Under the pieces are notes generated by a model. It did not search any database, had not been told where the DNA came from, and was given only the letters and a program-made list of their open reading frames with translations. 64,000 nucleotides of DNA. Origin: Thraustochytrium sp. TN22. Taxonomy: Eukaryota > Sar > Bigyra > Thraustochytrida > Thraustochytriidae. Both the position numbers and the translations under genes were made by a program. The DNA lies in contig JABLUY010000015.1 in NCBI GenBank assembly GCA_013306675.1, positions 186,001 to 250,000 of the forward strand. The letters are read 5' to 3'. Shown here in pieces: positions 1 to 54,130 of this stretch (the first letter of the stretch is position 1; each line of letters starts with the position of its first letter).

Positions 1-3000
1 ACCGAGGAAGTCGAAGGAGAGCTCAAAGGTGCCACCTAGGGGACCAGTTGCTGCCGAAGAGCGCACCTCGAAAACGTGTGGCATGAAGCCGGCGACGCCG
101 TCAGTCTCGGTGGCGATCGAGACAGCCACAGAGTCCGCTAGCGGCGCCTGGCACGTGCCAGAGCCCACGTTCTGCGCATCGAGGCGATCGATGTCACCGT
201 TGCACAGGCTCGGGCCCGTGAAGGTTACCAGAAAGCATCCGGCATCGCAAATGTTCGCATCCTGGGTCACGGTCACCCCATCGACGGTGGCGAGGTTGTT
301 GAGAGCGAGTGCGAGGTCGTCCGCGGAGGAGTCCATGCGTAAGCACGGAGTGGTTTCGCCGCCCAGCTCGAGCATGAAGGATGCCTGCGGCTCGGTATCG
401 GCGCCTGTGAGGTTGATGGCCTGCACCTCAAAGACGCGGGTCGCGTACTCCACTTGCACAGACTCCACGCGCGCGCCATTGTTGCCGAACATATCGGTCG
501 ACGGCGGGAGCTCGTACTCAACCAGAAGGGCCCCATCGCTGGCGAAGTTCCGACGCAGCGTCACTGCACCGGGGCGGTCTGGCAGAGCCAGCGTGCGCAC
601 CGGCGAGCTGGTCGCAACCGAGACCGCACCCATGCCTTCGGAGCTGATGGCGTAGGCACGAACGTGGTAAAACTTCCCCGGAACCAGATCGTAGATGGTT
701 GTGCTCGTCGGGTACGAGGTTCCGGCGCTGACCGTGAACGAAACCTGGCGCAGCTCGTCGCTGTTGAAGGAGTCGATGGCGTCAAGCTCGATAACGAAGC
801 TCGTGACCTGGGCGCCGCCGCTGCTGTCCGGATGCTCAAGAGATACGCTAATGGCGCTCTCCGAGACCACAGAGATGGCGATGTTCTTGGGCGGCAGCGG
901 CGTGCCGAGGGCAGGAGTGATCGACGCCGGGACCGGAGCCACGAAATCGCCAGTGCCGCGCATCGCGTTGTAGGCCGCCACGCGCACGTAGTACAGCTTG
1001 CGACCCAGACCCGTGATGCGGTAGCTGTACGGAAGGCGGCCCTGCACGCCTGCGCGAACGGCCTCCACAGAGAGAACGCCAGGCGCCGGAATGCCAGCGC
1101 TGTCCACTGTGAAGCGATCACCAACACGGCCCGGGTAGAGCAGCTCCAAGAAGGTAATTGTCCATGCGTGACCGCCGTCGGCGGCCAGAACGTTGCGCTT
1201 CACATCGACGAGACCGACCGTGATGAGCGTCTCGAGCGCCGCCTTCACCTCGGCGGCAGACGCGCCCACGTTGATCGGGTCGGTGCGCTGGCCATCCACA
1301 GCGAGCTGGAAAGTGCCGGTCGAAATGCCGGTGCAGGTGATGCGGCGTACCTCCGCCACCGGCGCAGCGTCCGAGGCTTGCACGACGCCCGACCCGAGCA
1401 GACTCGAGTCGAAGAGCGGGCTCACGTCCCACTCCAGCTCATAGTGCGTGACGGCAGCGCCGCCGTTCTCGCGTGGCGCGAGCCATTCCACGAGAAGCTC
1501 AGAGCTGGACACCGTCGTGACCACTGGATACGAAACGGCGCGGGGTGCGAGCGCGATGGGCGACACGGACGCTGGTACAGTTGACTCCGGCGCGGAGAAG
1601 CCAAGCTCGTTGCCGGCCGAGACGCGCCCAAAGTAGGGCACACCACTCAGCAGGCCAGAGAACGTCGCGGTGCCCACAGCCCGGATAGCGATTTCCGCGT
1701 CGTTGTCGGGCGCGGAGAGCGTTTTCTCGTAGATTGCCACTAGCTTCCGCGGCGCGGACGTCTGCACGCTCGTGAAGGTAACCTCCCACTCAAAGCCATT
1801 GTCCACAGCGGTACGCGAGACATCCACAGTGCCAACCAGGCCGAGCTCCTCGAGCGCCGCCTCAACGTTCGCCGCGCTTGCATCATGGGCAATCTGCGAC
1901 GTCCGGGCGAGACGGTAGCACGGAACGTGCGCAAAAGTGTCGCCCGCGTGCGTGGCAGACTTTGTCGCATCTACGGCATCGGCCAGCGGCGCGCTGTAGA
2001 CGCCCCAGGAGTCGGTAAGATGCACACGGTACGTCGGGCCGTCCAATAGATCGCCGACACGCACGTAATCGCCCTCCTTCAGCGCGGGCGGTGCGAAGTT
2101 TGCATTGGCCACAGTCCCCGAGGGGGACAGCGCAAACTGGCCCGTGACAGCATTATCGCCTGGCGCGATGGAGCAGGCCCCGATGGAGGACTCGAGCTGG
2201 AAGACAGGCGTGCCCACCGCAACCGTCTCGCCGTCGTACGTCGCCGTAACGGTCGGGTCGTTGACGGAGGCCAGCGGAAGCGTGGTGGCATCCAGGGTAG
2301 CGGAAGCGTGCACGCGGTATGTGCGTCCGAGGACGCGTACGTAGTCTCCACGCGCCACGCAGGAATGGAAGCCAGCGACCACGCTTCCACTGTCCCAGGT
2401 AAGTGAGGAGCCGCCCTGCACGATGGTCACAAGGGCGTCGTCGCACAGGCGCTGCGTGAAGGCGCCCATGTCCTCGAAACTGCCGTACGCAAGTGCGAAA
2501 TCGCCGCCAATGCCGGCCGTGTACGCACTCGTCCGAATGCGCTGCACCGTGAAGTCGATCGGATTGCTCCGGGTGATCAGATTCGCGCCCTGGAAGCTCG
2601 CGGAGCGGTCGAGTTGCACGTTGAATGAGCTGACGGGCTCGCCACCGTGGTCCAGGGGCTCCTCGTACGTGATCATCACACTCTGCTCGTCGACGACGCG
2701 CATCGCGATTCCGGTCGACACCGCCGGCACGCTCTTGGGCGCGAGGCTGACGGGCGACGAAGCGGCGAGCGGGCCGCGGCCACGGTCGGTCTGCGCCGCA
2801 ATCTGCACGTAGTACTCCGTCCCGATGGCCAGGCCCTCCATCGTGTAGGTGAGCGTAGGCGCGGTCACGGTCGCGGAGCGATATGCGAGCGGCTCGACAC
2901 CAACCGAACTTGTGCTGATAAAGACGCTTGCACCTGCACCGCCCAGAAGGTTGTCGTTGTACGATAGTGCCGGCTGCGGCCCGCGCGCCGACTCGAAGGT

Positions 3001-6000
3001 GACGGTCCATTGGTACGCACCGACGGAGCCGGACCGCGTGACGGTCACGTCCCCGACAGAAGGCAACGACTCAAGAGCTTCCTCGACCCGCGCCGCGCTC
3101 GCATCAAAGTCGATGTCGGTTGTCGTGTGCTTGCCGTAGAGCGTATGCGAGCCGGTATCGCCTGCGAAGGCCGAGGCAAGCGGGAGCCGAGTCGAGCTCA
3201 GGATCTCCGACACGTCGGAATCCACCACGTACTCAGCACCATCCAGAATGACCTTATCGCCGCGCGAGAGGAAGCGCGTGAAATCGAGGCCGTCTTCCGC
3301 CACGGCGTAGGACTCCCCAACCGCGGCGTACACTGAGCCCAGCTCCACGTCAATGGCAGCGCCGTAGGAGAGCGTAAAGGTCCCCGAAGTCGCGGATGCG
3401 AGCTGTATCACCTGCTCCTCCTGGACCCCAAAGTGCGGCGTGGCCGCAGATCGCTGGTACCACTCCACAAAGTAGCGGTCCACCTGAAGACCAGCCGGCA
3501 TGACGGGTGCGGACCAGGTGGCCCTGATCGACGTGCCCGAGCCCGTGTTGGCGAGCAGCACATTTTGCACGGCTCCAGGGAGGGCGCGCGGTGTCTCTCG
3601 CTGCGGCTGTGTCAAGACGGCATCGCCAAAGCCCTTCTCTGCGTTGTACGCGGAGACCCGCACGTAATAAGGGGTGCCCGTCGCGAGCGAGGTGATAATG
3701 TACTTGACCGCAGCCGCGGCCGGGACGACGGCGCTTCCAAAGTCCGCGCTGCTGAAGCTGGCCGCGCTATCCCACTCCACCTTGAACTTGGTCACTGAGC
3801 GGCCTCCGTCAAAGAGGGGCAGCGCGAAGTGCACTTCCAGCTCGGTCGACGAGCGGAGCTTGAGAATGGGCGTCCCGCACGCCGAGGAGGAGTCGAACGG
3901 GTTGCACGGAGCGCTCGGCTCTTGGAAGGGCGGAGTCAGCGTGCTGGGTGTTGTGGCGACCGTGGCGCCGTAGCCGAGGCGGTGGCGCGCCGCGACGCGC
4001 GCATAGTACGCCTTGCCCGGTGTCAGACCTTCAATTGTGTAAGAGTTGACGCCGGCGCTCAGCGAAGGGCACACTGCCCCGGGCGCCGTCGAGCAGTGAC
4101 TAAAGTCAAAGCTCTCGATGGACTCGGTCGTGCAGTCGGTGCCAGCAGAGACGCCGCACTGAATCAGGTCGCAGCGCGCCGCAACGGCCGGGTAATTCAC
4201 GCCTAGAGACGCGGCGCCGCTCGAGGGCGTGTTGACATCAATTTCGTACGTGCGGTCAGTGGCACTCCCAACAAGCGTCACCGTCACCGAGTCAAAGAGT
4301 GAGTGCGCCTCAATGGCAGCTTGAAGCTCCGCGTCGGAGGCGTCCCATGGCACGCAAGAGGTGGTCTCGCCGTCCGGCGTTCTCAGCGTGAACGCGCCAC
4401 GGTTGCCCTCGGTCGTTGCATCCAGGTCTACCGAAGGGTTGTCGCCAGCGAGACTGAGCGTGCCGATGGACAGCGTCGGCACGTTGCCCATGCCAGCAAA
4501 GACGACTTCATAGGTCACCACGGTACCGGCGTCCACGACGTTGACCACAATGCGCGAGTCGCTGCCGAAAAGTGCACGCAGCTGAGTCTGCAGGTCACTG
4601 ACATCTGCGGCATTCACTGAGACCGGTGACTGAGCCCCGCTGATGAGACAGAGACCACAGTCGGTCGAGGCGTCGACGTTGAGGGTGTATGTGCCGCTGA
4701 TGGTGCCGCTGTCCACACTCGTTGTGATGGTCTGCACCTCATCTGTTGTCTGCATGTCGGTCGTGGCGCTCAGAACCAACTTCTGCTCCTGGAACGGGAC
4801 GGTGGCTGCCGAGGTCGACGCGACAGTGGCAGTTGGCAGCGGTCCATCCGAGGTATCGACTAGCTCAGTGTCGTCCGGTACGAGGACCGGGACAGGGCCC
4901 ACCATTGTGTCGAAGACAACCGTCCACACGCGGGAGAGGTCCACGACGTTGGGCGCGCTCACAGTCACCGTGACGGTGTCCACGTTCGGGAGGTTCTCCA
5001 GCTCTCTCTTGACTCTGGTCCCCGTCGCATCGAACGGAATGCGCGCGGTCTTGTAGATCCCCTGCACGCGGCAGTGCGTGCAGGCGACAGTATTGAAGGT
5101 GAGGCGGAAGCTCCCAGCGAGTGCGCCAGTTCCTCCATTGAGAGAAGTGGAAATGGTCTGCTCCTCCTTTGCAAAATCAGCCCACGGCGTCGAGGACCAC
5201 TCCACAATGTAACCTTCAATATCATCGCCGCCATCGTTCGTCGGGCTGGACCACCACGCATGCAGGCTCGTGCCGAGCGTCGAGGGGTCTTCCATCGCCT
5301 CGGCTGATGTAAGGAGGCGAAGCCCGACCTGGGTCGGAGCGTCCGGCGGCCGCATCGGTACTGCGCTGTAAAAGGTGGACGAAGGTCCATAGCCAAGCGA
5401 GTTGCGCGGCGTGATCCGGATGTAGTACGTGGTACCAGGCGTGAGAGAGTCGATGACGAGGCTCAGCTCGTCGCCGGGAGACGCCGCCTCATTGCGGTAT
5501 GGAGAGCCGTCAAGGCCATCAGCGTCCGAGTTAGCGTTGTTGAAAGAGAGCGGCTTGCCGTCCACTGAGTCGAAAGTCGACCGCGTATCCCATTCCACAC
5601 GGTAGCGCGTGTTGGCCACGTTATCGACAACGCTCCCGCTCGCCCAGGTCACCGTCAGCGTAGTCTCAGAGAAGGCGTTCTGGCCGTTGAGAGCTTGGTT
5701 CGAGAGCTCAACATTGGTCACCGCCTGCGGCAATGCGCGCGTCATGATCGCCGCGTCGCAGGCCTCGATGCCGTCCTCGCAGAAGGAAGAGGCGAGGCCG
5801 GCTGTGTGGCTGTTGCCTTGGTCGTTGACGGAGAAAATCCGCACGTGGTATGTCGTGCTCGAAGCCAGGCCAGTCACTTCGGTACTGAAGGACTGCAGGC
5901 TGTCGCTGTTCGATGCCACGGAAATGACTTCGGTCCTCGCGATGCTAGAGAAGTCTGAGGCAGTGCTCACATCGATGCTGTACGCGCTGACGCGAGCGCC

Positions 6001-9000
6001 GTTCGTCGACATTGGGGGCGCCCACTCCACATAGAGCGAGGTGGACGCATCCCTCACGGAGCGTGCACGCACGTTCTGCGGCGCGCCAGCCGGAGCGCGT
6101 GGGATAAGCGCCGCCGGGGAGGAGGCTGTCCCCAGGCCAGCGCCAACCTCGTTCACGGCACGCAGACGGAAAAAGTAACGGGAACCTGCATGCAGCGCGC
6201 CGCCGTCAAACTCGGTCCGCACAGTGACCTGAGCGTCGGCGAGGTCACCAGAGCCAGAAAAGGGCGTACAACTGGCAGTCGCACCAGACACAGCCACAAG
6301 TTGTGGTTCGTCGGCGTCCGAGGATGTGAACGTGATGCGATACAGGTAGCCGCTGCCAGGGCTGGTGATGGCTTCGCGCGAGACGCGTACTGTCTCGGGG
6401 GAGATGACGGCCTCGAGGCTGGACTGAACGGTCGCGCTCGTGGCGTCAAAGTCGATGCAGGCCGAGGCGGAGGATGCTCCGAGCTGCAGCGTGTAGGAGC
6501 CCGCGGAAATCGTTCCAGAACCGGCGAAGACGCGTACCTCCTGCACCTCAGCGCCGAGCGACGCGAGGATGCAGCTCCCAGAACTGCAATCATCCACATC
6601 GCCATCGCCCGTAATGGTGGAGGCATCAAAGGACCCGAGCGGAGCCCCACCAGAGCTGTCAAAGGCGGCGGTCGTATCCCACTCCAGGCGGTACGCAAGA
6701 ATATCGGCGCCACCATCCGTCGTCGGGTAGCTGAGCTCGTTGCTGACGGGAGCCTCATAGGTGGCGTGCACATGGCCTGGGATGTCCGACTGGCTGACCT
6801 CTACTGCGAGGCTGAGAGGCCGCGGCGGGACCTGCCTGACCGGCACCGCCGTGGAAGGCACACTCCGAGTGGAGGCGCCCATCCCGTGGACGCTGTAGGC
6901 GGAGACTCGGACATAGTACGTGGTACCCTCGACGAGGGAGGCGATTTCATACTGCGAGGTTCCGCCGGCGGAGAAGCTCAGGCGGCACAGCTGCGTGCCA
7001 TCACAGTCGTTAGGCGTCGCAACGTTGCAGCAGGCGGCGTGCGAGGTATCCAGCACCTCGCTGTTCGCGCCGACAAAGTTGTAGACCGTCGACCATTCCA
7101 CGAGAAAGTGCGTCGGAAGCGAGCCACCGGACACAGTGGGGAGCTTCCACGAAATCCCGAGCGCGGCGGCCCCAACGACGGTCAGCGAGGGCTGCAGCGG
7201 CTGGGTTGGAGCGCGTACGCCCAGGCGGATGACACTCGCGCTGTCCTGGCCCTCGATGAGCGTCGTCACCGTGAACGAGTTCACGTTGTCCAGCGTGTGT
7301 GTCACCGTGCAGGCGGCGAGGTCGCCCAGAGAAGGCGCGAATTGCACGGTCCAAGCGAAGCCAAAGTCCGCCATGCCGACCCCGGTCGTGGAAGACAGGT
7401 CGACGCGGGACACGCGCGGATGCGCCTGTTGGAAGGCCGCCAGGTTCGCGAGCGCGTCCGCCACCTCGGCGGCGGTCGCGTCGTGGCTTAGGGGAGTCGC
7501 GATGCTCTCCGAGGCGCACGTAATCGTAAATGTGCCGGATGTGGGCTCCGCGCTCGCGTCCAGCGTAAAGACCTGCACCTCCCCGGCGTCCTCCTGTGCA
7601 GTGCCAGCAGTGGGCTCGCTGTGACCCTCGCTGTTGAAAGCCAGTACACGGACATAGTAAGGGCTCACCGAGGAGAGGCCTGTGATGATGGTCGATGTAC
7701 CAGTGACGGTCACTTTACGAGCCGTCGACCCAAAGGTCGACGACGTGTCCACCTGAACCACGTAGCCCGCCACAGGGGAGCCGCCGGTGTGTTCGGGCGC
7801 CTCCCAAGCAACGCTCAGTTCGGTTGAAGAAAGGACACGTGCGACCACCTGTCGCGGCGCAGTCGGCGCGCGCGGACCAGGCGTGGCGAGGAAGGGCGCC
7901 ACGGTGGTCAGCACGTTCTCGCTGCTTCCGGCCTGTGAGCCCGATACGCGCACGTAGTAGCTCGTTGAGGATGAAAGGCCCTCGATCTCCGCCGAGGTTG
8001 GCAATTCGCCACCCACCACCACGGTTGCTGTCGCCACGCACGGCCGAGTCCCGGTCAGGGAGCCGTGGCATGCGGATGTGTGTGCGTCACTGCCATCCGT
8101 CGTCTGCGTCGACACGAGCAAGCTGGGAAGGGCTTGCGGCGCGCCCAAGAAGGTCACGGTCCACTCGAAGCCGGCCTCCGTGTTGACCGCGCCGGTGCTC
8201 TGCACGAGCACGCTGCGGCTCACCTCCACCTCATCGATCGGTGCAAGGCGCTCAAGATGGGTCTTGAGGTCCGCGGCGCTTGCGTCGAAGTCGATGGAGT
8301 CCGTTGTGTGGCCCAGCAGGGTCAGCACGAAGCTTCCGGCGAGGTCGTCCGCGCCGGAGGTCGTAACGCGGACGGTCTGCACAGCTCGCGTCCGTGTCAC
8401 ATCCTTGGAGCCTAGAGGCAGCACCGTGATGCCTACGGTGCCCTGGTCGAAGGCCGGCTGCGTCCCGGCAACGGCGCGCACCACACTCACGGTCGCGGAG
8501 CTGCCGGCCAGCCCGGACGCGCTGCCTGTCATGAGCGGCACCCCGCCCACGTTCGAGGCAAAAGTAACACGCCACGAGAAGGCACCGCTGCCGAGTGAGG
8601 AGCGCACCACATTCGCAACGCCAACCGTGGGGAGGGCCTCGAGAGAAGCCTGAACCTCCGACTCGGACGCGTCGAAGGCGATAGGCCCAGTGTTGAGCGC
8701 TCCGAGCGTCAAGGTGAAGGTGCCCTCGCCGCCAGTGCCGGAGGTGGACACGACCTGTACTTCCTGCACGGCCGGGTTCGTGTCCCACGCCACCGTATAC
8801 TTGTTCAGAGCGGCCGCAACCTCTCGCGCGGGCTCCGTCCAGCTCACCTGCAAGAGGTCCGGGCCAAGCGACGACAGGACGACATCCTGCAGCGCGCCTG
8901 GCATCGCCAGCACCTGCGCGGTCGCGGGCAGACCGTAGGCCGTCGGGCCGTAAGCGTGACCGATGCCGTTCCACGCGGAGACCCGCACATGATAACGCGC

Positions 9001-12000
9001 GTTGGACACGAGCATCTCCGGCACGGTGAAGGAGTACAGTGGGCCTGCACCTAGGTCGGCAACCTCCAGCACCGCGGAGCCCTTCGCGCTAGAATCCATG
9101 CTGGGCAGTGAGCCCGACACGGTTGGCACGGCCGCGACAGACGGATTTGTGCCCGTGAGGCGGTCGCCCTGGGCGGTCATGTCCGGCTGGTTGCCGAGGT
9201 TGGTCAGGAAGACCACGGTCCACTGGAAGCCCGTCGTGGTCGTGGCACGAGAGACGCGCACCGTGCCGACGCCATGGAGTGCCTCGAGCGCGGCACCGAG
9301 CTCAAACGGCGAGGCGTCGAACGGGATAGCGCGCGTCGTCTCGCCGCTGAAGGTGAGCGTGAAGGTACCGCCAAGGTCGCCCGCGGACGCGGACGCCGTC
9401 ACGGTCTGCACGTCATATCCCGCAAGGCCTTCAACGGTGGTCGTGACATCCACGACAGCACCTGTGCCGGTGAGCGTCCCGGCTGCAGCAGAAGCCGCAA
9501 AGCTCGAACCAGCATCGGTCGAGACCTCGAGCTCCTCCGCGTTCCCGTGGGCCTCGCCAAAGGTGATGAGCCACACGTAGCCCTTGTTCGCAGTCGCCTG
9601 CACGGTTCCGTCGACGCGCTTGCGGCGCGCCACCGCAATGTCGTCCGCAATAGAGGGCAGCGAGCGAAGTGCAGCCTCCATGGCCTGGGCGCTGGTGTCG
9701 TGCGCGAGCGCCGGCGTGGCGTGACCGCCGAAGCGCAGCACGAAGCTGCCTCCAAGGTCGTTCGCCGTGGCAGACGTGGTGATCGTCTGAACCTCGCGCA
9801 GGCTGTACAAGATAGCGTCGGATGCGCCAGCATCGACAGCCTCCTGCCCGAGCAGATCCCACTCCACTCGGTACTTGGTGATCGCCTCGCCACCATCGTT
9901 CGCCGGCGCTGCAAAGCTCACGGTGAGACGGCCATCATCGGTCGGGCTGACCGCGACGCTCGTGGGCCGTTGCGGCTGCGTGCAGGGCTTCTCAGAGGCA
10001 GGCACCGTAAGAGCACCTCGCACCGAGTAGCCAAAGGAGTTGTACGCGAAGACGCGCACAAATACGTCCACACCTTGCGGGAGCGAAGCGATGGTGTACG
10101 TGCAGGGCGAGTCGACGCACTCCGAGGCGAGCGTTTTGGAGACCTCATGGTAGCCCTTGCCGCTCGAGGCAGTGGACGAGAAGTCCGCCTGGACATCCCA
10201 TTCGATCTTGTACTTGGTGATGGTGTCCGCGCCGTCGCTCTCGGGTGCGTTCCAGTAGACCTTGAGGGAAGTGGCTGACTGCACCGCCAGCTGAGCGTTC
10301 TGCACGATGTCCGGCTTCTGGCGCGGAGGCGCAAGCGAAAGTGGCGTCGAGGTCTGCGCGGCGCTCCAACAGCGGTCGTTCCTGCTCCGCACGCGCACAA
10401 AGTAGGACGTGCCGGCGCTCAGCGAGGTGATGGTGTACTCGAAGGTGGTTGCAGCGAGCTCGACGGAGCCATACTCCGCGGGCAGAACACCGGCGGAGGC
10501 GTCGGCAGCCGCGAAGCTCACACTACTCACGGAGCTTACCCCGCTGACGTCGGCGGAGAAAGCAGGCTGCGGGCCGAATTCCGATTCGAAGGTCACCGTC
10601 CAAACGAACTGGGAAGTGCCCGTGGAGGAACGGAGGACGGATACGGAGCCAATGCCGCACAGGCCCTCCAGGGCCGTCTTCATGTCCTCGGCCGAGGTGT
10701 CGATGGGCAAGGCGTCCGTCTCCTCGCCGTCGAAACTCAGGATGAAGCTACCGCTCATCGGGTTCGCGCTGGAGATGGTGAGCGTCTGCTCCGCGAGCGT
10801 GGCCGCAGGCAGTGTGTACCACTCCACCATGTACGCATCCGCGGCGGAGCCTGCATCGCCAGCGGGAGCCGTCCAGGCCACATGCAGCATCTGAATCGAG
10901 TCAGCGATGCGCACAGAGCCGCCAGCGGAGCCGGCGTTGGCCGGCACTGTGCTGAGCGCGACGCGGCCATCCGCGATGGCATCGAGCGCGCGGCGCGCTG
11001 CATGCGCTGCCGGAATGGTTGAGGTACCCGTCGTATCGGCCAGCGTCCACGGGCCTCTGCCCTCCGAGTTCGTCGCGGCCACTCGAAAGGCGTAGGCCTG
11101 GCCAGGTACGAGACCCGTCACCATGTGCTCGTAGGTTGCCACGTGCAGGTCGCTCTGGAAGGTGCCCTCCTGATCGCTCGTGCTGAGCGGCCACGAGCCG
11201 GACTCGGGATCGCCGGACGTCCACGCCACCGTGTAGTCCGTAACAGGCGCGCCGTGATCGTCCTCGGGCGCGTCCCAGTACAGCTTGATGGCGGATGCGC
11301 TTCCAGGCACGAGGCGAGCGACGACATTGATAGGCGCGGTCGGGATGCTGCGAGGCATCTCTGTGACAGGGGTTGCGCGCGGGCCGTAGCTGAGACCGTT
11401 ATCGGCGTTGCCTGTGTAAGCGGCCACGCTCACGGAGTACGTTGCGCCAGCGTCGAGAGAGTGAATGGTGTATTCGTACGGCATATCGAGGTCCTGCAGG
11501 TCGAGGCTCGCGTGCGCGTTCGTGATCTCCGCCGTAGCGAGGTCCGCTGGCGCCGAGCCAGCCTGTACGGACGAGAGGCTCACCGTCGTGCCGCTGGGCT
11601 CGAGAGCCGTGCTGGCGATCGAGAGACTTCCGCTCGCGTCGCCTGGGTAGGCATCAAATACGATGTCCCATACGATGTCGAGCCCGTCAGTGCCCTTGGC
11701 AACCGACACCGCGCCAACCTCGCGCAGAGCCTCGAGCGCCGCCTTCAGCTCCCAGGCCTCCATGTCGAACGGCAGCGCCGGTGAGGTGTGAGCACCAAAC
11801 TGCAGCTTAAACGAGCCACCTGCGGCCGTGCCGTCCATGGTGATTCGCATCTCTGTCGGCGTCCCAGCAGTGGACCACCACTCCACCCGGTACTTGGTGA
11901 TCGGGGCGCCACCATCGTTGAGGGGCGGGCGCCACTGCAGTTTGAGCGCATCGGATGCTTCCACGCTGAGCTCGAGGCTCGTAGGCTGCGTCGGCGGCAC

Positions 12001-15000
12001 AGCGCGGGGCGACACAGCAAAGGGGCTGCCGGCCAGAGCATCAATCGAGTAGTAGAGTGCCGAGGCTGGCACGATCTGTTGCGGCTGCGAGGCGGAGCGC
12101 CAGTACAGCTTGCAGGTGGCGTCGTCGGTGTTTTCGCGATACTCGATCTTGATCGGCTGCAACCGGCCCGCGACGAGTGCCTCGGAGGTCTGTCCCTGGA
12201 AGACGTTGACCGTGCCGGCTTCCGCCTGCGCTTCAAAGCTGTCGATGAGCAGCTCGTCGGCCACCCAGAGCCTCACGCCATCGTTCGCGTGGATAACAAA
12301 CTCGTACGCCTCGGTGAAGCGAGGCTGCACAAAGCCCGTCCAGCGCACGGAGATGTAGTCGCGACCGGTCTCGGTGATAAAGCTCTCCCATTCGAAGTCA
12401 ACGGTGCGATCGACGCGCGTGAGGACGGGCGTGTCGAAGAGCCACCGATTGTTGAAGTACTCGCCAGAGAGGCCGCCCACATTTGCGCGACTGACGCCCA
12501 GCGAATAGGTGCCCTCGCGCGGGACCTCGTACGTGGCGTCGTAGATCCCGGCAGAGCCCGAATAGATGACGTCGCCGAGCACGGTGCTCGGACCGACCAG
12601 CTCGACAAGGAAATCCTCGCCCTGGAGGCCGGCCTGAGTACCGCTCGGGCAGAATGCCACAACATCCACGCGGGAGCCCTGGCCGGTCAGCAGGTGCGGC
12701 TCACCATACACAAGAGGCTCGCCGCTGTCTTCGCCGCTGGCGCTGGTGGATGAAAAGGTGATCGTGTAGGTGCGGCCGCCCTGGGCGTCTGCACTGCCTT
12801 CAAGGACGAGCACAGAGAAGACTGTGTCGAGGTCCTCCAGGGCGTCCTTGACCTCTTGAGCAGTTGCGGCCGCCGGAAGATCCACAGTCGCCTCGTCGCC
12901 ATAATGCAGACGAAAGCTGCCGCCGAGCGTAGTTGTCGCCGTCGTCGTCACGGTCTGAATGTAGTTGCGCCGGCACGCATGAACCTCAGCCTGCAGCGCG
13001 TCGTTCACATCGGCGACCGAAACCTGGCTTGCATCCAGATCGAGCGCCGGAAGATCGCCCTTCTCCGTGTCAAAGGTAATGCTGTACACAAAGCCAGAGT
13101 ACGCGGAGGTGGCCTTTGAAGCAGAAGTCGCTGAGCTGGTGGCGCCCCGCCATGACTGCACGAAGTGAACCGTATTCATGTCGATGGCGCTCACCTTGTA
13201 AAGCTCGTCATCGCCTGAAAAGCGCAGCAGATCACCAACGCTGATCTCGCTGCGGAGGTCAGCGCTTGACGCAGCCGCGGTGCTACCAGCGACGAGATCC
13301 AGCGTGCCGCCAGTCACGACAGTCAGCGCCTCGCTGTACAGCGAGCGAGTCACGGAGACGGCACCGATCGTGGAAAGGGACTCTAGCCTGCCTTCGAGCG
13401 TGGCGGCGTCCGCGGAGACGCTGAGGTCTACGGTCTCCTCACCTTCGAAGGACAGACGAAAGACTCCAGACAGGGTACTGGCTGAGTACATGTCGAGCTG
13501 CTGCACCTCATGCACCGGACCGGTGAAGATGCGGTTGCTGAAACGATCGCGCGACTCGATCTGGAAGCTGGCGACGCGCTCGAAGAGGCCGGTCTCCAGC
13601 CCGCAGGCGCACTCGGCGGCGAAGACCGGGCAGAGGTCCGAGGGTGCCGTGTCAAAAGGCGTGCAGTGAGCAGCGCTCAGCGACGTTGGCGACACGACGA
13701 GCTCGTCGAAAGGCGCGTACCCAGCGGTCTCCTCCGAGATGCTGATGGTCACGTCGTCCGTTCCCGAGGAGGTGAGCGCATGCGTGTAGGTCATCCTGGG
13801 CAGGTCGCCATAGGCTAGTGAGCCAACAGAGACGCCGTTCAGGTCCTCAGCGACGAAGGTCACGTCCCAAGTATAATCACTGGCGCCCGCGCCACCGGCG
13901 ATCTCGTCGACCTCAACCACGTGCACCGACCGAAGCCCAGTCAGGGCAGCGGCAAGACTTGACGTCGTGACGGAGTCGATGTCGAGCGGGTCGGTGTACT
14001 CGTTGTTCAAACCGAGCGTGAAAGTGCCTGCAAGGTCCGCAGAACCGTCGACCACGATGCGCTGCACCTCGCGAATGAGGGGCGCGCGCGCAGTCTTGAT
14101 GTGCGAAGCCTCCCCGACCGTTGGCGCAGTGACCGCAGTGGCGGCGGCGCCACCAGCAGAAGCCAGCGTGCTCTCCACAACGGTCAGGCTGTCCAGGGCG
14201 CCCGCAAAGCTCGCGAAGGTGATGTCAAAGGTCATGACGGCACCGGTCTCGACGCGCGAGACTGTCAGACCCTCGAGGTCCTCGGCAGTAAGGGTGGCGG
14301 ACGAAGTGAGCTCCGAGCCCACCAGAGCCTCGCGCAAAGCGGTCTGCATATCGGCAGCACTCGTGTCCCAGGCCAGCAGGTCTGTGAGCTGCTCGCCATC
14401 CAGCGTGAGTCGAAAGTGACCGGTACGTCCCGTGGTGCTCGGGAAGGTCATCGTCAGACGCTGCACCTCTTCGACGGTGCCCATGAGAATCGCTACGTTG
14501 TAACGACCGGCCACGGTGGGCGTGAAGCTGAACTCATAGAGACCGTCGCGGAGGTAACTTCCGGTGGCAGGGATGATGCGGGTCGCATCGCCGGGAATGG
14601 CGCTAGGGAGGCGCACTGTAGCAGACAGCACGCTGCGCGTCTGCGTCTCGAGACGATTGTTGCCCGCCGCATCCTTGGCCTGCACGTAAAAGGTAGAGCT
14701 GACGCCAGCCTCGCCAAGCATGAGTCCACGTCCGAACGCGAGCGTCATGCCCGGATCGGCCGCCGCCGGAACGACCTCAGCGCGGAACGGCGATCCGGCG
14801 ATGTGGCGCGCTCCCGCGCCCGGGACGACCTCCACCACGGAGATGGTGGCAATGTCGCCGGAAAGGAGAGACTCCGCCTCGAGCAGCGGCACGTCTCCGA
14901 GGGCGGCGTCGAAGGTGATGGTCCAGGTGCGACCCAGCGAGCTGCCCGAGGCGGCCACCGTGACGCTGCCAATGCTGGCAAAGGCAGTCTCCATGGCGGA

Positions 15001-18000
15001 CTTGAGGTCGCTGCCAGAAATGTCGTGGGCCAGCAGGCCGGTGTTCTCGGCGCCGAGGGAGAGCACAAATCCCCCGCCAAGGGCCGAACCCGCCGACGTT
15101 GTGATGGTCTGGACCTCCGACACGGCGGAAAGCTTGACGCTAATCTCGTACGATCCTCGAATGACCGGGTCGAACTCATAAAGGTAGGTGCCTGTGGCGC
15201 GGCCGACACGGTAAACTGGCGCGCCCACAACGCTAGCTCCGCGGCGAGCGTCAGACACTGGCACCGAGGCGTCGTCCAGCGTACCGGCAAGCGCCACAGT
15301 GAATCGCTCATCGCCAATCACAAAATTCTCGCCGCGAGCCAGACCGATCGGCGAGGAGGTCTGGAGGACTGAATCGCCTTCCGCCATCGTACCACAGGCA
15401 GCGCATAGCTCCACCCAGTCGACCGCGGTCTGTGTCGGGGTCAAAACCACAGGCGCACCAGAGGCGACCTCGTCGAGGCGGCCCGTCAGCGCCCAGCCAT
15501 CCACGCCAACGATGGACACCTCCACCAGATCCAGGCCAGTCACGCCGTCCGCGCCGCTCTGGAAGCGCATGTTTCCCATAGAGTCGCGCGCGTGCACCGT
15601 GAAGGAGCTGCGCACATTGGACGTGCCGGTCGCTAGGCCAGCGCCCGTGGCGGTCGTCGTAAGCGCGTCGATGGCGCCCGGGTAGATGACCACCTCAAAA
15701 GGGGACGTGCGCAGGTCGCGCTCGTACATGAGCTGCGAGGCAGGTAGAACCACCGCCGCCGCACCAGACGCGCGCATGCTCGGTGTGCGCCAGCGGAGCT
15801 TGACACGAGCCGCACCGCCACTCTGGCGGTACTCCACGCGAAGACTGGAAAGCTGGCCTGCCTGCGCCGCATTGACCGAGGCAGACCAGGTGTCGGCGCC
15901 GGCGGCGTCCTCCCAGCGGTCAATCACGAGGCTGCCGTCGAGGTAAATTCGCACGCGAGAGTCTGTCTCGACGATGAGATCGTGCAGGCCGGTCTCGGGC
16001 AGGAGCACGTAGCCATCCCAGCGAACGGAGAAGAAGTCGGCCGCGAAGCCTGCCAGCGGCGTCTGCACGCCCCAGTCGAAGTCAATGCCGGCGTCAACGC
16101 GAGTCGTGCTGCACGCATCCGCGAGGAAGCCTGGGCAGTGGAGCGCTGCCGCAGGGTGCGCGAGAATCTCCTCGGCAGTCAGATCAACCGCAGTGACAGG
16201 GTCCGTGAGGTCCTCGCGTTTGAAGTAGGTCGCCAAAAGGCCGCCCTGCGTCCGTAGACGCACCTGCAGCGCATAGGTCCCGGCGATGGTCGGCTCGTAC
16301 TGCACGGCATAGATGCCGTCGGTGTTGGGCTCGCTCGTGGTCACGCTCGCCGGGAGCACGACCTCCTGCGTGACATCTAGACCGGTCAGCGGGCTGGCAC
16401 GGCCTACCAGCTGAATCCGAAGGTGATCGGGCTGTAGCAGCGGGCCGTCAAGCTCATTGCCAAAGATGTCGATGGCCTGCACGGTAAAGGACTCCGGGAC
16501 ACCCTCCGTGGCGATCGGCCTCGCGGTGTGCGTTGACGTGTGCGGATGCGCACGGGCTGGTGCCACGAAGACGCCGGCGTCCAGGTTCGTCCGAACGTCG
16601 CTGCCGTCCACCTGCACGGAGATATCGTAGGTGCCCTTGATCGATGGCACGTATGAAACACGGTACCGCGCGTCGCCGAGGGACTCGGTCACAACGGTCC
16701 CGCGGGACTTCTCCACGACGGTGACCGTTGCGCTCCCGCCAGCGAGCAGGCTCGACGCGTACGGGAGCACCTCGAGGACCGCGCCTGGGTGCCAAGTCAT
16801 GGCGAGCTCCACTTCGCAGGTTTGCGTTGTGTCACAAACCGTCGTGCAGCCCCCCGGAAAGCTTGCGGTGATGTCGAGCCCCAGTGAGGAGGCCCCAAAG
16901 GCGTCAAGCACGGCCTGCAGGGCCGGCAGGTTGCTGGTGGCGGCGATCGGGGCGGAGGACATGCCGAGCACATGCAGCACGAACGATCCGCTCGAAGCGT
17001 CGCAGGTGAGCACCTGCACCTCGTCGGACCCAATGACGTGCGCAGAGCTAGACGTGCGGTGCACAAGCTGCACCGCGATCAAACCGCTGTCATCGTCCTG
17101 CACGCGCAGGTTTCCGGCAAGGCCCTCGACCGTTTGCAGCACCGTGATCCGTGGTGCAACCTGGCCGTTGGCAGAGAAGGCGAGACCGGAGGCGTCAGCG
17201 ACGAGGAGGGGCTGCCGGCTGCCCACATGCGGGCCTGTGTTCTCAAAGCGCACCGTCCAGATGGCACCGAGCGGTAGACCGGAGCTTGCGTCGTACCCGT
17301 AGTCGTCCTTGGACACTGTGAGCGTGTCAATCGTCGAGAGTAGCTCGAGCGCAGCCTGAACCTCCGCGGCGGTGGCGAAGGCCGAGATGGGGCCCGTCTC
17401 TTCTCCTTCAAAGCTCAGCGTGAAGGTGCCCGACGCCGGGGCCACGCCAGGAACAAGCTCCTGCACAGTGATGCCCGGGCTGCTCCCCGTCAGCGCCGTG
17501 TCTACCGTGTACGAGACGAGCCCAGTGATGTCCCCCGGGGAGTCAAGGAACTCGATCCAAACGTAAGGCACCCCAACGCCGTCTGCGCACAGGTTTGTGG
17601 TGCTAATGTCAGCGCCTGTGGAGGTACTCACGACGACGTGACCGCTGCGAATGCCATCGAAGGCGGCCTGGAGATCGCTGACCATGTCCACATCAGCGTC
17701 CAGGGTTGCGGAGATGCCCGCGACATCAGGCAAAGATACCGTGAAGGTGCCGGTATCAGCATTACAGGTGAACTCGTGAACCTCCCGGCGAGCGTTGGTT
17801 GCGCCCTTGGTGGGCTCCGCAACCTCGAAGGTCATGGACGGGTCATTTCCGGCGACGACGAGGTCTGGGAGATCGCCCCGCAGGCTCGTGAAAGTGATCT
17901 CGATGGGTTCGGGCGTACCCGCAGTGCACGCGGTGAGCTGGCTGCCGCCAATGGTGACGTCCACGGAGCCAATGGTAGGGACCGCCTCAAGGGCGGCTTT

Positions 18001-21000
18001 GATCGCGGACTGGTCGTCGCTATACATGATGAGAGCGCTCGTGTGGCCGCGAAAAGTCACCGTGAAGCCTCCCAAAGACGCGTCGCACCGAATGGTCTGC
18101 ACCTCGCTGGTCTCCGCAAGAACCTCTGCGTCCACGTAGATGACTTGCTCGTCGTACCGGGGACCGTCGCGCACTTCCACTTCAAAGGTGAAAACATCGC
18201 CGGCAACACCCCCGACGAGACCATCGCCCTCGCAGAACGAGTCGGCCGCATCAATGGCGCCAATCGCCACGGAAAGCGCAAACGGGCTGCCCTCGACTTG
18301 CAGCCCGCTCGAGCCGTCGCGAACCACCAAATCATACTCGCCGGCCTTCCAAAAGGTGTACGTGATCGGGTATGTCCCTGTGCTGGCGACCGTGGTGAAG
18401 ATGGCCGCAGCAGCCGTGCCGCCGAGCAGCGCAGTGTTGGTCGAGAATGCCGCAGGGTCCCACTCGTCCAGGTGCGAGGTGAAGGTGATGGCCCACTGGA
18501 AGCCATTGCTCGCTACTGAACGGTCAACGAGGACAGAGCGGCGCGTCCCGGCCACCTCGTTCGCCGTGCCGCCGGTGCCATAGTCATACTCGACCCAAAG
18601 CGCCTCGAGGGCGACGCGCATGGCGCTCGAAGAAATATCGTACGGGAGCTCCCGCGTGGTGCGGCCGGCCCAGGTAATGGAGAAGCTGCCGTCCAGGGAC
18701 GGATCACTGGTGGACGTGGTGAGCAGGAGCACCGCGGAGGAGCTGACCACCTCCTCGACGTCGGACCCAGTCTCACGAACCGACACTAGGAAGCTGTCCG
18801 CGGTACCAGCAAGGTCAATGTCAACGCCAGTTCCGTCGCGTGCATTGGAAAAGACGTCCCGTGCGAGAACAGTGAAGGACGCAGGCGTGCCCGAGGTGGC
18901 CACCGTGAGTCCAGCACCAGTGGCGACGGAGGAAGGTGCGTGCAGCTCAGCATGCTTGCACACGACGGTCGAGGCCACCATGGTGCTCTCCGTGAGAATC
19001 GTTTGGTCCTTGTAGGTGGCCATCACCTCGTAGGTACCCGCTTGGCGCAGCGTGTAGGTGACGGTGTAGGTGCCATCGGAATTGTCGCGCACATTTGCGA
19101 GGATCTCGTGGCCGGCAATACCGCCGGTACCGACAAGCTTGACGATCAAGTGCTCGGACTCGCCACCGACGTGCTTGAGGTTGCCGTAGGTGTCCCGCGT
19201 CGTGATGGTAAAGGTCGCGACTCGGCCCGCCACCGCGGCAGAGAGGCCTGTCTCGGCGCCCTCCTCTGTCGCGCCGGTCGTCTCGTGCGATGTCGGGCCT
19301 GGGCTGACGCGGACCGAGAAGGGCGAGCACTTGGATGCAGCGCCCAGCCCGCAGTAAATGTCGGTACCACTCTTGGTCTTGACCGAGACCAAATAATCGC
19401 CGGCGACCATGGCCGTGTAGCGTCCCACGAAGCGGCCAGCTCCAACGTACTCGGGCGTAACGGTGAGCGCCTCGGGACCCAAAAGCGTGACCTCAAATGG
19501 GTCCTCACCGGATTCGTCATTCGTCATGCGATCGTTGCCACGGCTGTCGCGGCTCTGGATCTCGAACGTGGTTTCAATGCCGGCAGACACGCCAGAAGAC
19601 TCAAGGCCCGGACCCCAAGCCGTGGTGTACGGGTAGTCCGCCGCGCCCGGTACAACCGCGACAGCAAAGGGCGAGCCAACGATGTGCTCAGCGCGGTACA
19701 GGCTCGCCCTTGGCACGGTCTGGCGCGCGACGCTGTAAGAGGACCATTCGAGGCGAACGGACGCCTCGCCGGTGAGCTCCTTGAACTCGAGCCGGATGTC
19801 GTGGAAGGCACCGGCTTGAAGGGCTACCTGCGTTGCGCGAAACTCGGACACGCTCTCATCACTGCGCGCCGCGAGGTCCCAGGCGTCAATGATGAGCTCA
19901 TGGTCAAGCCAAAGGCGAGCGCCGTCCCGGACGGTAACGTAGAAGGTGAAGTCTTCGCTGCGCGGGCCTAGCAGCTTGCCCTGCCACCTTGCGGAGACGT
20001 AATCGCGCCCGTAGGGGGTGATGGTGCCTTCGCCCCAGGAGAAATCTACAACCGGGTCCACGCGAGACAGGCTCGGCACGCCAGAGAGCCACTGGTTGTC
20101 GAAGTAGTCGGCGCGAAGGCCACCCTTGACGAGCTGCCTCACGCTCAGCGCGTACGAGCCGGTGTGCTCCGGCGTGTACGCGCCTGTGTACGACGGTAGG
20201 CCAGCCACCTTCTCCTCGATCAGCAGCGCAGGGTGATCGCCCTGCAGGGCGGCGTCTGAGCCCTCCTGCGGCTCGAGCACGAGCGCTGAAGGCGTGGTCC
20301 CGAGCAGCCCCGAGGTGTCGACGACGAGGTCGTCGAGGTTGCCCAGATCATTGTGAAAGGTGACGCGCCAACGGTAGCGACCAAAGCCTGGCGAAAGCGG
20401 GCCGTCGCGCGCAACGGTGACGGAGGTTCCGGCAAGCGGACTCAGCCCCTCCAATGCCGTTCGCATCTCGTCCGCAGTGCAGTCGAACGGGAGCGCCGCC
20501 GTGGTGTCACCGCCGAGGGAGACCGTGAACGTGCCCGAGATGGGCGTCGGGTCACCGCCGGTGATCTCGATCGACTGGATCTCGTGGCGAACCGGGCTGG
20601 CCACCATGAGGGGAAGGTTGCCAAGGTTCCTCAAGAAGGTCACGGTCCAGCGAAAACCGGAGGTGAGGTCCTCGCGCTCCACGCTAACAGAGGAGACGGT
20701 CGACAGGGCGGTGAGGCTGGCCGCAAGGTCATCCGCGCTTGCATCGAAGGGAATGTTGCCCGTGTGCGCGCCCTCGTACGTGAGCACGAAGCTGCCCTGT
20801 AGCGGGCTAACGCCTTGCTGGATCTCTTCCACGTCGGTGCATGGTGCAGACGAGCACGTGAGCCCAGTTTCGTCAATCACCAGCGGCGCGACGTCGCCCA
20901 CCGGGTCAGCGAAGGTCACCGTCCAGGTGGGCGCGGCGCCCGACACCGTCACCGAGGTGATCGTGTCGAGCGCGTTGAGCGCAATTTCGATGTCGGAGGC

Positions 21001-24000
21001 AGACGCATCGTAGTTCACGGTCGCCGCCACGGGGGCCCCGTTGAAGTTGATGTCAAAGGTGCCCGCGGTAGCGCCGGCCGTCAGTTTGATGACCTGCTCC
21101 TCTGCCACAAAGGACGAAGAAGCGGAGACCGTCACGGTCTGAACCTCGGCTACGCCGGTCTGGACTTCAAGAGTGTGGAGGGCCTGGCCTGTACCGGTCA
21201 GCGTCGTGTAGGCCGCATCCTCAAGAAGCGTGGGCAGCGGCCCGAAGTCGCCCGTGAAGGTAACATCCCACTGGAAGGCGCCGGCGCCAAGGTCAGAGCG
21301 CGTCACGTCACAGGAGACGACACCAGAGAGCAGCTCGAGTGCGTCTTTGACCTCCTTGGCGGTGGCGTCATAGTTCAGCATGGCCGTGTATTCCACCGCC
21401 CCGGTTTGCCTGGCGTAGGTGGTTGTGTCCAGCTTGAGGCGGAACTGGCCGCCCGTGACGATCGTGCCGCTCGTGTACACGCGCTGGATCGAGTAGCGAA
21501 CAGGCACGTACTGAGCGACACCGCCGTCCGCGGCCCACTCGTGCGTGCCGTCAACGACACTGACATCGGAGGTCCAGAGCTCCGTAAAGAAAATGTCGGC
21601 GCCTTGAAAGCCGGGTTGCGCGGACACATCGCGCACCGGTCCACCGGAGAGCTTTTTCGGCTCAATGGTGAATTGGTTGGCCATTCCCTTCACGAACTCC
21701 TCCACGACCGGGGTGATGACTGCAGTGGAAGAGTCCTGCAGGCTCGAGGAGTCCACCTCGATTGCATCGACGTCCCCGTGCAGATCCTCGAACGTGATAA
21801 GCAAGCGGCACCCATAGAAGCCATTCTCGTTGTCCACCACCTCGCGCGAGACGGACACGCTGCCAACGAGAGCGCCGTTTGCATCGTAAAGGCCAGAGAA
21901 GAGCGCAGCAATGGAGGACTCGCTGTCGGAGACCGGGTCAAAGGCAGCCGTTGCGGTGGCCCCGGCACCACCGACACGCAGCGAGACCGAGCCACTCCAC
22001 CCGGAGGTAGCCTCTGCATGGAGAAATGCAACACGCTGCGTCTCAAACACCAAGCCGGCAATGCCATTCGTGAGCGCGGAACCGGTTGCCGTGGTCGCGG
22101 CTGCGCTCGCACCGGCACGCGCGATGACCGTCGGCGTGGCCGGCGACAGCACGCCCTGACCCGCAGCGCTGAGTGTGGCTACCTTGAAGGCGTACGTGTT
22201 GTCCACAACGAGGCCCTCGGCGGTGAAGCGCTTCAGAGACGGGTCCTCACTGCCGTCGTACACCAGCACGGCGGGCGTGCCAGCCTGCACTTCGGCGCAC
22301 ACCACGGAGGCGGCGTTGTTGTCGTTGGCGCCCGGCACGTAGTCATAGCGCACTCCAAAGAGACGGCCCGAGGTACCCTGAAGGAGAGGGAGGTCGCCCG
22401 CCTCGGTGAGGAAGGTGACGTCCCACTGATAGCCCGGGCGCGGCAGAGTCACTGGGGTCCGGGCACCGACCTCGACTTCACCGATGGTTGAAAGGCGCTC
22501 CAGAGCGCGGCGCAGGGCGCCGGCCGAGATGTCATACGGAAGCTCCTGCGTGGTGGCGCCGCGGAAGCTCAGGGTGAAGGTCCCAGCAAGGGGGGCCACG
22601 CCTTTCGTGTACTCCGCAACGCTAATGCCAACCCCCGTACCCCCCGTGAGCGCCGAGTCGTCCACGCCAAGGGTCTCCACATCGCCGTGTTTGGCGTCAA
22701 AGGTGATGGTCCACGTGTACGAGCTGGCCGTGCCGGTGCGAACCACGGTGACGCCCTGGCCAGCGTCGGCAGCGCTAGCGACAGACGCGAGGGCGTCAAG
22801 AGCATCTTTGACGTCGTCTGCCGCAGCATTGTATGCGATATCGCTCGTGGTCTCGCCGGCAATGCTGAGGCGGAAGACGCCGCCGCTGGCGTCCGTGGTC
22901 TGAACGGTCTGCACCTCCGCCTGCTCCGCATCGGCGGTCATGAGCACTCGCTGTACCTCGGCCTTGACCGGGTCCGGGTCCGCGACAGTGTTAGGTGGGA
23001 CGGAGTCGAAGCGGTAGACCTTGAAGCCCGTAGCCGGGGAGCCACGCATGTTGGCAGATCGCGCCCAGCCGAGCGAGATGGCGGTGGCCTCCACGTCGGT
23101 GATGGAGGGCGTCGCCGGCGCGGCTGGCAGCGCCGCCGCCAGGACAGCCTGCATGGGCGAGCGCGGCGAGAGGCCCTCTTCGTTCAGCGCGCGGACGTAG
23201 AAACGGTACGGCTTGCCTTCGGTGAGCGAGCCTGAAACGTGCGAGAGCGAGCCGGCAGCAAGGCTGGTCACATCAACCTTGGGCGAGTTCGAACCCGAGC
23301 AGCTCAGCGCCGTCGCAACGGCCTTGACCAGCGGGATGGTCTCATAGTCGCCAGATGCGCCGGGAACGAGACCGCCCGTGAAGGCGATCACCTGCATGAA
23401 CTGATCCAACCCAGAACCGACCTCACGCCTGTGCACGTGCACCGAGACAGGGCCGCCCTGCGCTGAAGCGAGCGCAGCCTCGATGCCGGCCTGGACATCC
23501 GCCGCGCTAGCGTCGTGGTCGTAGGTGCCAAGGTCGATCACATCCGGAACGACGCCATTGACTGAGGTCGACGCGGACAGCTCGCCGTGCACGAGCTGTA
23601 GCGTAAATTGGCCGCTCACGACTTCGCCGCTGCACGAGGGAAGGACCGTCTGCACTGAAGGGTCGCCACCACCCGCATGCGTGGCGGCCATGCTGATGGA
23701 AGTGCCAGTAAAGCCGGCGTCGTTGACGAAGATCTCCTCAATTTCACCGTGAAGCTCCAGAAAGGTGATGGCGTAGTCGTAGACACCGGCGCTCGGGTTG
23801 GTACGAGTGACGTCGACGAGGCCGACCATTGGCTCCAGCGCATCACGGATATCGTCCGCCGCCGGCACGCTCGTGAAGTCGATGGCACTCGAGCTCATGC
23901 CCTGGTACACGAGGGTCACGGTGCCGGCAGCACTTGAGGTGGAGAGGGTCTGCACAGGCAGGTCGCCAAAGTTGGCAATCTTCGTGAAGGCGCCGCCGTC

Positions 24001-52872: not shown

Positions 52873-54130
<1,258 letters not shown>

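Follow-up and report, generated by a model that had tools for sequence, protein, structure and literature searches.

The window, a stretch of 64,000 nucleotides from Thraustochytrium sp. TN22 (C66:186001-250000; genome 37.9 Mb, 453 contigs), contains the first part of a gene for a giant protein in which FN3 domains are interrupted by a separate domain, termed FTL. The protein contains 37 FN3 domains, and 21 of these are split by FTL, nearly always in the same gap between an N-terminal and a C-terminal half. This nested architecture is well supported. The original prediction, made from the letters of the window, described FN3 domains interrupted many times by separate modules at one fixed loop. 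Recurrent interruption at one favored loop holds, and the system is larger than first described.

The giant protein is encoded by a single minus-strand open frame of 16,295 amino acids with no internal stop, translated from an M at window position 28410 (in the search of contigs it is listed as a 16302-aa open frame). The stop codon lies at C66:165523, which is window position -20477, and the gene extends 20.5 kb past the low end of the window. The N-terminus resembles a signal peptide: hydropathy over 19 residues peaks at 2.45 at aa 8, and the runner-up anywhere in the protein is 1.63. The protein is acidic, with 1951 D+E residues against 807 K+R. Pfam recognizes fn3, Filamin, and PA14 in it.

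Positions 1-28410, minus strand: window share of the giant frame, aa 1-9470 (translation).
Positions 28327-28410, minus strand: signal-peptide-like N-terminus, aa 1-28 (hydropathy; cleavage site by eye).

One rival explanation is an assembly or gene-model artefact, in which genes or exons were joined or FTL runs are removed from the RNA. The frame is known from one assembly and from DNA alone, but it holds 16,295 stop-free codons in DNA of 62-64% G+C, and interrupted host domains recur on two other contigs, C90 and C93. This explanation is very improbable.

Three profiles were made from the giant itself: FTL, the FN3 N-half (strands A-C, before the insert), and the FN3 C-half (strands E-G, after the insert). 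Over the whole frame the two halves alternate, N then C, 37 times. Intact pairs (16/37) have an N-C gap of 18-52 residues, median 27.5, and the pairs split by FTL (21/37) have gaps of 126-2,481 residues. The N-halves score 14.6-59.4 bits, and 35 of the C-halves score 11.9-52.9 bits. Left out of the count were a 12-column C match at aa 1252 and an N match at aa 16149, which belongs to the same domain as the one at 16210. A reversed protein and five shuffles, pooled as controls, gave one N-half, no C-half, three FTL matches, and two matches to S, a smaller module described below; the top control score was 0.9 bits. Pfam fn3 matches are likewise fragmented near profile position 42, e.g., columns 2-42 at C66:197839-197988 (window 11839-11988) and columns 42-82 at C66:167410-167535.

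The FTL profile gives 90 matches, 85 of them with an independent E-value (i-E) below 1e-4; the matches exceed the modules by a few, as modules cut by S count as two. Of the 85, 64 lie within N-C gaps. The other 21 are found at aa 2135-5256 (16 matches), at aa 6952-7050 after a C-half (1), and at aa 14162-14529 (4). Split FN3 domains carry one to five FTL matches in 20 pairs and 20 matches in one pair (aa 11506-14060, gap 2,481), which lies outside the window. When the PA14/filamin stretch at aa 2100-5460 (16/85 FTL matches) is excluded, 21 of 23 FTL runs stand between an N-half and its C-half and two follow a C-half. The chance of this at equal odds is 3.3e-5, or 1.4e-4 when the excluded stretch is counted as one contrary run (21/24), both worked out by hand.

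Of the FN3 domains, 14 split ones (out of 21) and 9 intact ones (out of 16) begin inside the window. The two cases singled out in the original prediction are among them: at 28330-26290 the N-half, five FTL matches spanning more than 500 residues, and the C-half are all present, as are the N-half, one FTL, and the C-half at 10850-10390.

Positions 26275-28323, minus strand: FN3 no. 1, aa 30-712, with N-half aa 30-73, five FTL matches aa 123-656, and C-half aa 675-712 (profiles).
Positions 24562-26265, minus strand: FN3 no. 2, aa 716-1283, with four FTL matches (profiles).
Positions 23158-24156, minus strand: FN3, aa 1419-1751, with two FTL matches (profiles).
Positions 22132-23130, minus strand: FN3, aa 1761-2093, with two FTL matches and a weak C-half of -0.7 bits (profiles).
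Positions 11353-11997, minus strand: FN3, aa 5472-5686, with one FTL (profiles and a Pfam fn3 fragment).
Positions 11038-11343, minus strand: intact FN3, aa 5690-5791 (half-domain profiles).
Positions 10327-10905, minus strand: FN3, aa 5836-6028, with N-half aa 5836-5866, one FTL, and C-half aa 5991-6028; the modeled case (profiles, AlphaFold2).
Positions 10477-10803, minus strand: FTL of the modeled case, aa 5870-5978 including its first strand EQTLTISS; profile match aa 5878-5977 (profile, model).
Positions 9985-10314, minus strand: intact FN3, aa 6033-6142 (half-domain profiles).
Positions 8917-9975, minus strand: FN3, aa 6146-6498, with two FTL matches (half-domain profiles).
Positions 7942-8904, minus strand: FN3, aa 6503-6823, with two FTL matches (half-domain profiles).
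Positions 7213-7866, minus strand: FN3, aa 6849-7066; its single FTL (window 7261-7584) is placed in the F-G loop (profiles; loop by reading).
Positions 3931-5349, minus strand: FN3, aa 7688-8160, with three FTL matches (half-domain profiles).
Positions 2737-3582, minus strand: three-level nest, an FN3 (aa 8277-8558) holding an FTL that holds an S (profiles, model).
Positions 1-585, minus strand: start of a split FN3 (aa 9276-9856) that continues off the window (profiles).

The loop is favored but not strictly constant: 21 of 23 runs share the N-C gap, and two lie elsewhere. By eye, their sites appear to be an F-G loop (aa 6952-7050) and an A-B loop (aa 14162-14529), because the missing G strand or A strand stands beyond the FTLs. 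The tightest insertion (aa 5864-5991) leaves a total of 24 residues around the FTL profile match, against the intact median of 27.5. Tight cases thus keep a nearly normal total host-loop length, which suggests that FTL was added to the loop and not exchanged for it.

The modeled case was predicted with AlphaFold2 over aa 5828-6032 (model 1), using 24 alignment rows from the window, none of which was an intact FN3. Another alignment, in which an intact FN3 preceded the split domain, failed to align the halves correctly and was set aside. Model 1 has a mean predicted local distance difference test score (pLDDT) of 89.5 and a predicted template modeling score (pTM) of 0.80, and in it FN3 strands flank a distinct alpha/beta domain. 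Strands 2-7, 14-19, and 32-38 precede the insert (A, B, and C by order). FTL contains strands 47-54 and 59-66, helix 80-88, and strands 96-102, 107-114, 125-127, and 137-145. Strands 154-159, 164-168, 175-183, and 197-200 follow (C', E, F, and G by order). The FN3 part has its seven strands in the expected order, with pLDDT blocks of 76-94 and a C-terminal end of 66-68. A second AlphaFold2 model (model 2, aa 8272-8560; pLDDT 75.3, pTM 0.63) repeats this layout and adds S in the first FTL hairpin; its blocks score 86-98 in FTL and, apart from both ends, 74-94 in FN3.

The original prediction had placed the insert in the C'-E loop. The models favor the C-C' loop as the more likely site, because FTL and strand E are separated by a further strand (154-159 in model 1, 237-245 in model 2). 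FTL is predicted to be a beta-beta-alpha-beta-beta domain of about 100 residues with additional strands, and not an FN3. As modeled, the host is discontinuous and a complete insert occupies its gap, which corresponds to an A1-B-A2 insertion in the sense of ECOD.

If the two halves belonged to different, complete but diverged domains, or if FTL were itself an FN3 or Ig fold, there would be no nesting. The original prediction named outcomes of this kind as refuting it, and the checks made here did not bear them out. FTL does start and end with beta strands, and many phage surface domains are termed Ig-like in print (excerpted text of PMC9230969 and PMC13033339). Against this, the N and C halves pair in order 37 times, and the helix at 80-88 of model 1, between strand pairs, excludes an all-beta FN3/Ig-like sandwich. 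Model 1 also matches phage proteins over about 100 columns, which is the length of FTL, though the aligned portion of the model is not stated. This reading therefore merits hardly any credence.

Several points weigh against FTL insertion at one FN3 site. Two C-halves that were kept in the count, at aa 2062 (-0.7 bits) and 10512 (0.6 bits), do not outscore the controls. Five FTL matches (aa 2135-2719) lack a recognized host N-terminal to them. Halves about 600 or 2,481 residues apart are paired by order and profile only. The flanks of the insert vary, from 10 to 215 residues before the profile match and from -8 to 86 after it, so "the same place" is exact only in the tight cases. In both models the strands are named by order and not by pairing, and S is poorly predicted in model 2 (pLDDT blocks 39-57).

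FTL was not identified as a named family in Pfam or NCBIfam. Its stretches have no match at curated cut-offs in either (NCBIfam over aa 1-9470; one best stretch per family listed in both), and the sub-threshold matches include CBM_2 (0.33), HMA (0.34), ribosomal L23 (0.0062), and POTRA_1 (0.00052; 20.7 of 23 bits). The motif EVQTITTSA, originally taken as a piece apart from the FTL module, is instead the first strand of FTL and not part of FN3, because FTLs hosted by filamin, TIG, FG-GAP, EGF, and phage tail-tip proteins have an EVQ-type strand ahead of them as well. Such a strand is present in 36 of 56 fresh FTL starts against 6 of 22 contiguous ones (78 of the 85 matches were usable). In tandem runs, by reading, the last strand of one FTL often passes directly into the next FTL. 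Lone EVQTITTSA-type strands are also seen upstream of full FTLs, in head-to-tail repeats spaced 13-14 residues apart: four times at aa 75-125 (window 28036-28188), three times at aa 761-800 (26011-26130), six times at aa 11684-11750, and three times at aa 14083-14109. These repeats could possibly form a small beta-solenoid or strand ladder.

FTL in turn carries the smaller module S. S matches are located in or beside FTLs at aa 5034, 8357, 8661 (1.0 bit), 9549, 10252, 10998, 13357, and 14885; in several S-carrying FTLs the first FTL part is weak or visible by reading only. A further S match at aa 7618-7684 overlaps an FN3 C-half and was rejected as profile drift. Read partly by eye, aa 13304-14025 (L010) is likely a four-level nest in which an FN3 holds an FTL, the FTL an S, and the S further FTLs. 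FTL and S appear to host each other.

Positions 3151-3375, minus strand: S, aa 8346-8420, in the first hairpin of the FTL nested in the FN3 at aa 8277-8558 (profile, model).
Positions 13117-13338, minus strand: S, aa 5025-5098, within an FTL (4976-5024 / 5096-5135) within a filamin repeat (4935-4972 / 5261-5314) (profiles).

The second of these lies in a block of filamin repeats with guests of their own. Uninterrupted filamin bodies number four (aa 2921-3019, 3037-3139, 3952-4058, and 4548-4650). Three bodies are cut by FTL: one runs from 3156 to 3367, one from 3384 to 3934 (first part 2.0 bits only), and one is divided into 4935-4972 and 5261-5314. One more is cut by an S-like stretch (4244-4303 / 4364-4434).

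Positions 12001-20193, minus strand: filamin/PA14 block, aa 2740-5470, in which FTL, S, and PA14 break up filamin repeats (Pfam, filamin scan).
Positions 19714-20121, minus strand: PA14, aa 2764-2899, between a weak filamin-like end (aa 2740-2759) and a GSPF strand (Pfam; placement by reading).
Positions 12070-12474, minus strand: PA14, aa 5313-5447, before a GSPF-like strand; the filamin body ends at aa 5314 (Pfam; placement by reading).

By reading, each of the three PA14 domains (aa 2764-2899, about 4062-4225, and 5313-5447) stands between a filamin body and a GSPF-like strand. PA14 may be a third guest module.

FN3 is an FTL host, as originally described, but other domains also serve as hosts, FTL among them. 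The host and neighbor domains found above curated cut-offs are fn3 (PF00041), Filamin (PF00630), PA14 (PF07691), TIG (PF01833), and FG-GAP_2 (PF14312), and many of their copies are interrupted. The TIG host is a 12,321-codon frame on C90 (L022-L029, C90:24204-61166) with laminin-G and many TIG domains. It has 15 FTL matches in two runs, each, by reading, between a part ending in C-x-x-P and the last TIG strands. Several hydrophobic spans are seen near the C-terminus of this frame. The FG-GAP host is a 3,698-codon frame on C93 (L056/L058), where an FG-GAP_2 match ends at column 38 of 49 and is followed by FTLs; by reading, the FG-GAP repeat resumes past them. The EGF host, on C44 (L042:1348-3309), carries FTL and one S between adjacent tenascin-like EGF repeats. 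Here FTL lies at a junction, which counts against insertion, as "inside" is debatable. A giant frame of 7,961 codons on C126 (L059) also has FTLs. For the FTL hosts on C446 and C126, no Pfam host was named in the pieces searched. FTL matches are also present on C146, C100, and C114.

FN3 is itself seen, by reading, in unrelated contexts: a J-domain-like protein with two FN3 domains (L001, C260) and a leucine-rich-repeat membrane protein (L007, C401).

Judged by sequence, FTL has homologs among the tail and capsid domains of phages. Within the first 4,000 residues of the giant, the PHROG tail sheath family aligns to 11 stretches and the major tail family to 12; PHROG tail families reach 2.6e-44 and 6.5e-43. 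Sequence search of the PDB finds Bxb1 gp23 (9d93, 1.2e-41), the capsid (9d9w, 4.8e-6), and the tail tube (9d93, 4.8e-4). A protist FTL query matched 6 phage records, and a Gordonia phage FTL query matched 60 (Mycobacterium 30, Gordonia 24, Microbacterium 3, Microcystis 2, Skermania 1). Searching the bacterial-genome and viral collections with a single FTL yielded one locus in each, which makes these scans a poor guide to FTL distribution.

Structural searches with model 1 point the same way. Foldseek against the PDB returns the Bxb1 tail tip 9d93 (1.7e-4) and the Bxb1 capsid 9d9x_Ha (101 columns, 2.9 Å, probability 1.00; aligned portion of the model not stated). Against BFVD viral models, the top match (2.7e-7) is a minor tail protein of a Mycobacterium phage, and 10 matches have E-values of 0.001 or less; five rows cover 98-111 columns at 2.1-3.7 Å and one covers 104 at 4.3 Å, the aligned portion again not stated. 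FTL probably shares its fold with the Bxb1-type phage domain. The flagellar cap protein FliD, domains D2-D3 (e.g., 5h5t, 5h5v), is also among the best Foldseek matches of model 1 (from 8.4e-5). The FliD rows of the top 18 superpose poorly, with query-length TM-scores of 0.23-0.33 and root-mean-square deviations of 9.8-12.7 Å. The likeness is a lead for a shared small fold and not a demonstrated relation.

The FTL profile, built from the giant only, finds one FTL in seven of eight phage/prophage proteins (47.6-73.1 bits), the eight having been chosen as FTL carriers. The eighth, from Mycolicibacterium houstonense (L021:4762-6915, noted together with L061; best 53.0 bits), has three FTL N-parts followed by two C-parts, with a third C-part seen by eye; a single partial FTL (23.3 bits) is present in a second L021 frame. 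The eighth protein is a full-length relative of Bxb1 gp23 (span 6-718, 1.5e-281) and is also similar to the Douge distal tail protein (6.4e-27). In Bxb1 gp23, whose structure is solved, the FTL profile likewise gives three N-parts and then two C-parts. This order reads as FTL nested in FTL in both proteins, and as a nest three deep in the L021 protein. No FN3 halves were reported in the eight proteins (limit E 0.1), and in three of the eight FTL stands at or near the C-terminus and is not nested, which weighs against FTL as a regular guest.

A diverged FTL is probably also present in a solved structure of tubular mastigoneme proteins, 9ufe (chains named OCM3, OCM5, OCM6, and "tubular mastigoneme protein", with a link to Ochromonas). 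The C44 protein matches six 9ufe chains (8.4e-24 to 4.6e-17), largely via EGF, and the 9ufe_BA insert scores 18.4 bits with the FTL profile against 5.0 for the best of 500 shuffles. The C44 homologue agrees with the stramenopile origin assumed in the original prediction. Other results count against the relation of the insert to FTL. The insert match is weak PDB-wide (E 0.019), and a single C44 FTL searched alone missed the insert up to E 1. The giant gave no match to 9ufe chains to E 0.01 over 11,333 of its 16,295 residues (aa 1-4000, 4001-8000 with the best 60 of 63 matches, and 9471-12803). By sequence, the giant itself does not resemble a tubular mastigoneme protein: Pfam reports no EGF family over nearly the whole protein, and the parts searched have no 9ufe similarity.

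The giant is likely a secreted structural or adhesive protein, with a beta-sandwich backbone of FN3 and filamin and portable FTL guests as side arms. FTL would fold alone and occupy a surface loop of its host, and the host would close from two separated halves. The FN3 loop used would nearly always be the one following strand C, most likely C-C'. Once in the loop, FTL would multiply in tandem, from one to about twenty per split FN3, and acquire S. The FTL runs would stand out as side arms, giving a branched, bottle-brush-like extracellular protein located at the cell surface or in flagellar hairs. A role in structure or adhesion can be proposed for the giant, with adhesion or a structural coat the likeliest uses, because phage surface domains bind mycobacterial glycans; such binding is reported for surface domains, termed Ig-like in Douge, that may or may not be FTLs (excerpted text of PMC13033339).

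The FTL runs might also have no role of their own. Tolerant loops and unequal recombination would then have made the giant mainly a product of neutral growth. The number of FTLs per FN3 does vary from 0 to about 20, and FTL occurs in unrelated hosts, but frame and motifs are kept across 48.9 kb. DNA tandem repeats are nearly absent (the gene shows a single short array inside the window and, over the following 20 kb, no array at all), so recent duplication is undatable; the FTL copies are old and diverged, and most still score 30-92 bits, which suggests maintenance. Neutral growth is accordingly an unlikely explanation. In the rest of the window (28.5-64 kb), covered by an ORF list and a repeat scan, there are simple DNA arrays, GAGCA x 25 at 54003-54129 and a 33-base unit x 4 at 60067-60198.

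On a broader and more tentative view, FTL would be a wandering guest shared by phage virions and stramenopile surface proteins. It would have repeatedly entered unrelated loops, bred in tandem, and taken guests of its own, producing branched proteins with side arms of up to 2,481 residues from one loop. The usual picture of a giant protein is a linear chain of domains. The protein described here suggests that very large branched proteins can be encoded in one chain via nested insertion at a single tolerant loop, with a guest that is a phage virion domain, unnamed in Pfam, and probably present in stramenopile flagellar hairs as well. Its 16 intact and 21 split FN3 domains are a natural test set for folding around inserts of about 100-2,400 residues, and the favored loop is a possible insertion site for protein design.

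Among known systems, Bxb1 gp23 (9d93), the major capsid protein (9d9w/9d9x), and the tail tube gp19 possess, by sequence, the same domain. Unlike those of the giant, Bxb1-type FTLs are found in virion proteins in few copies, within a tail protein or appended, and have no runs of up to about twenty copies. The 9ufe chains have EGF repeats, an insert whose profile score is that of a diverged FTL, and a homologue on C44; they differ from the giant in their EGF host and in their length of 209-748 residues. The closest general parallel is the A1-B-A2 insertion of the ECOD survey (PMC13114784), as its excerpted text presents it. There, among 48,551 insertion events, the insert is smaller than the host in 77% (median 115 vs 199), its termini are about 10-15 Å apart, insertion sites are evenly spread with none preferred, and recursive nesting reaches six levels in cyanobacterial RNA polymerase. 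The giant shares the discontinuous host with an inserted domain and the recursive nesting. It departs from the cases in that text in several ways. Its longest insert block, 2,481 residues, is about 26 times the size of an FN3 (about 95). A single gap receives 21 of 23 runs (21 of 24 with the filamin stretch as one run), a loop can hold many copies, and one genome has several hosts. Neither FTL inside FN3 nor such a giant is described among the matches listed in the open-licence literature, a collection outside which most subscription papers lie. Domain insertion and the guest domain were already known, and their combination seems to be the new part.

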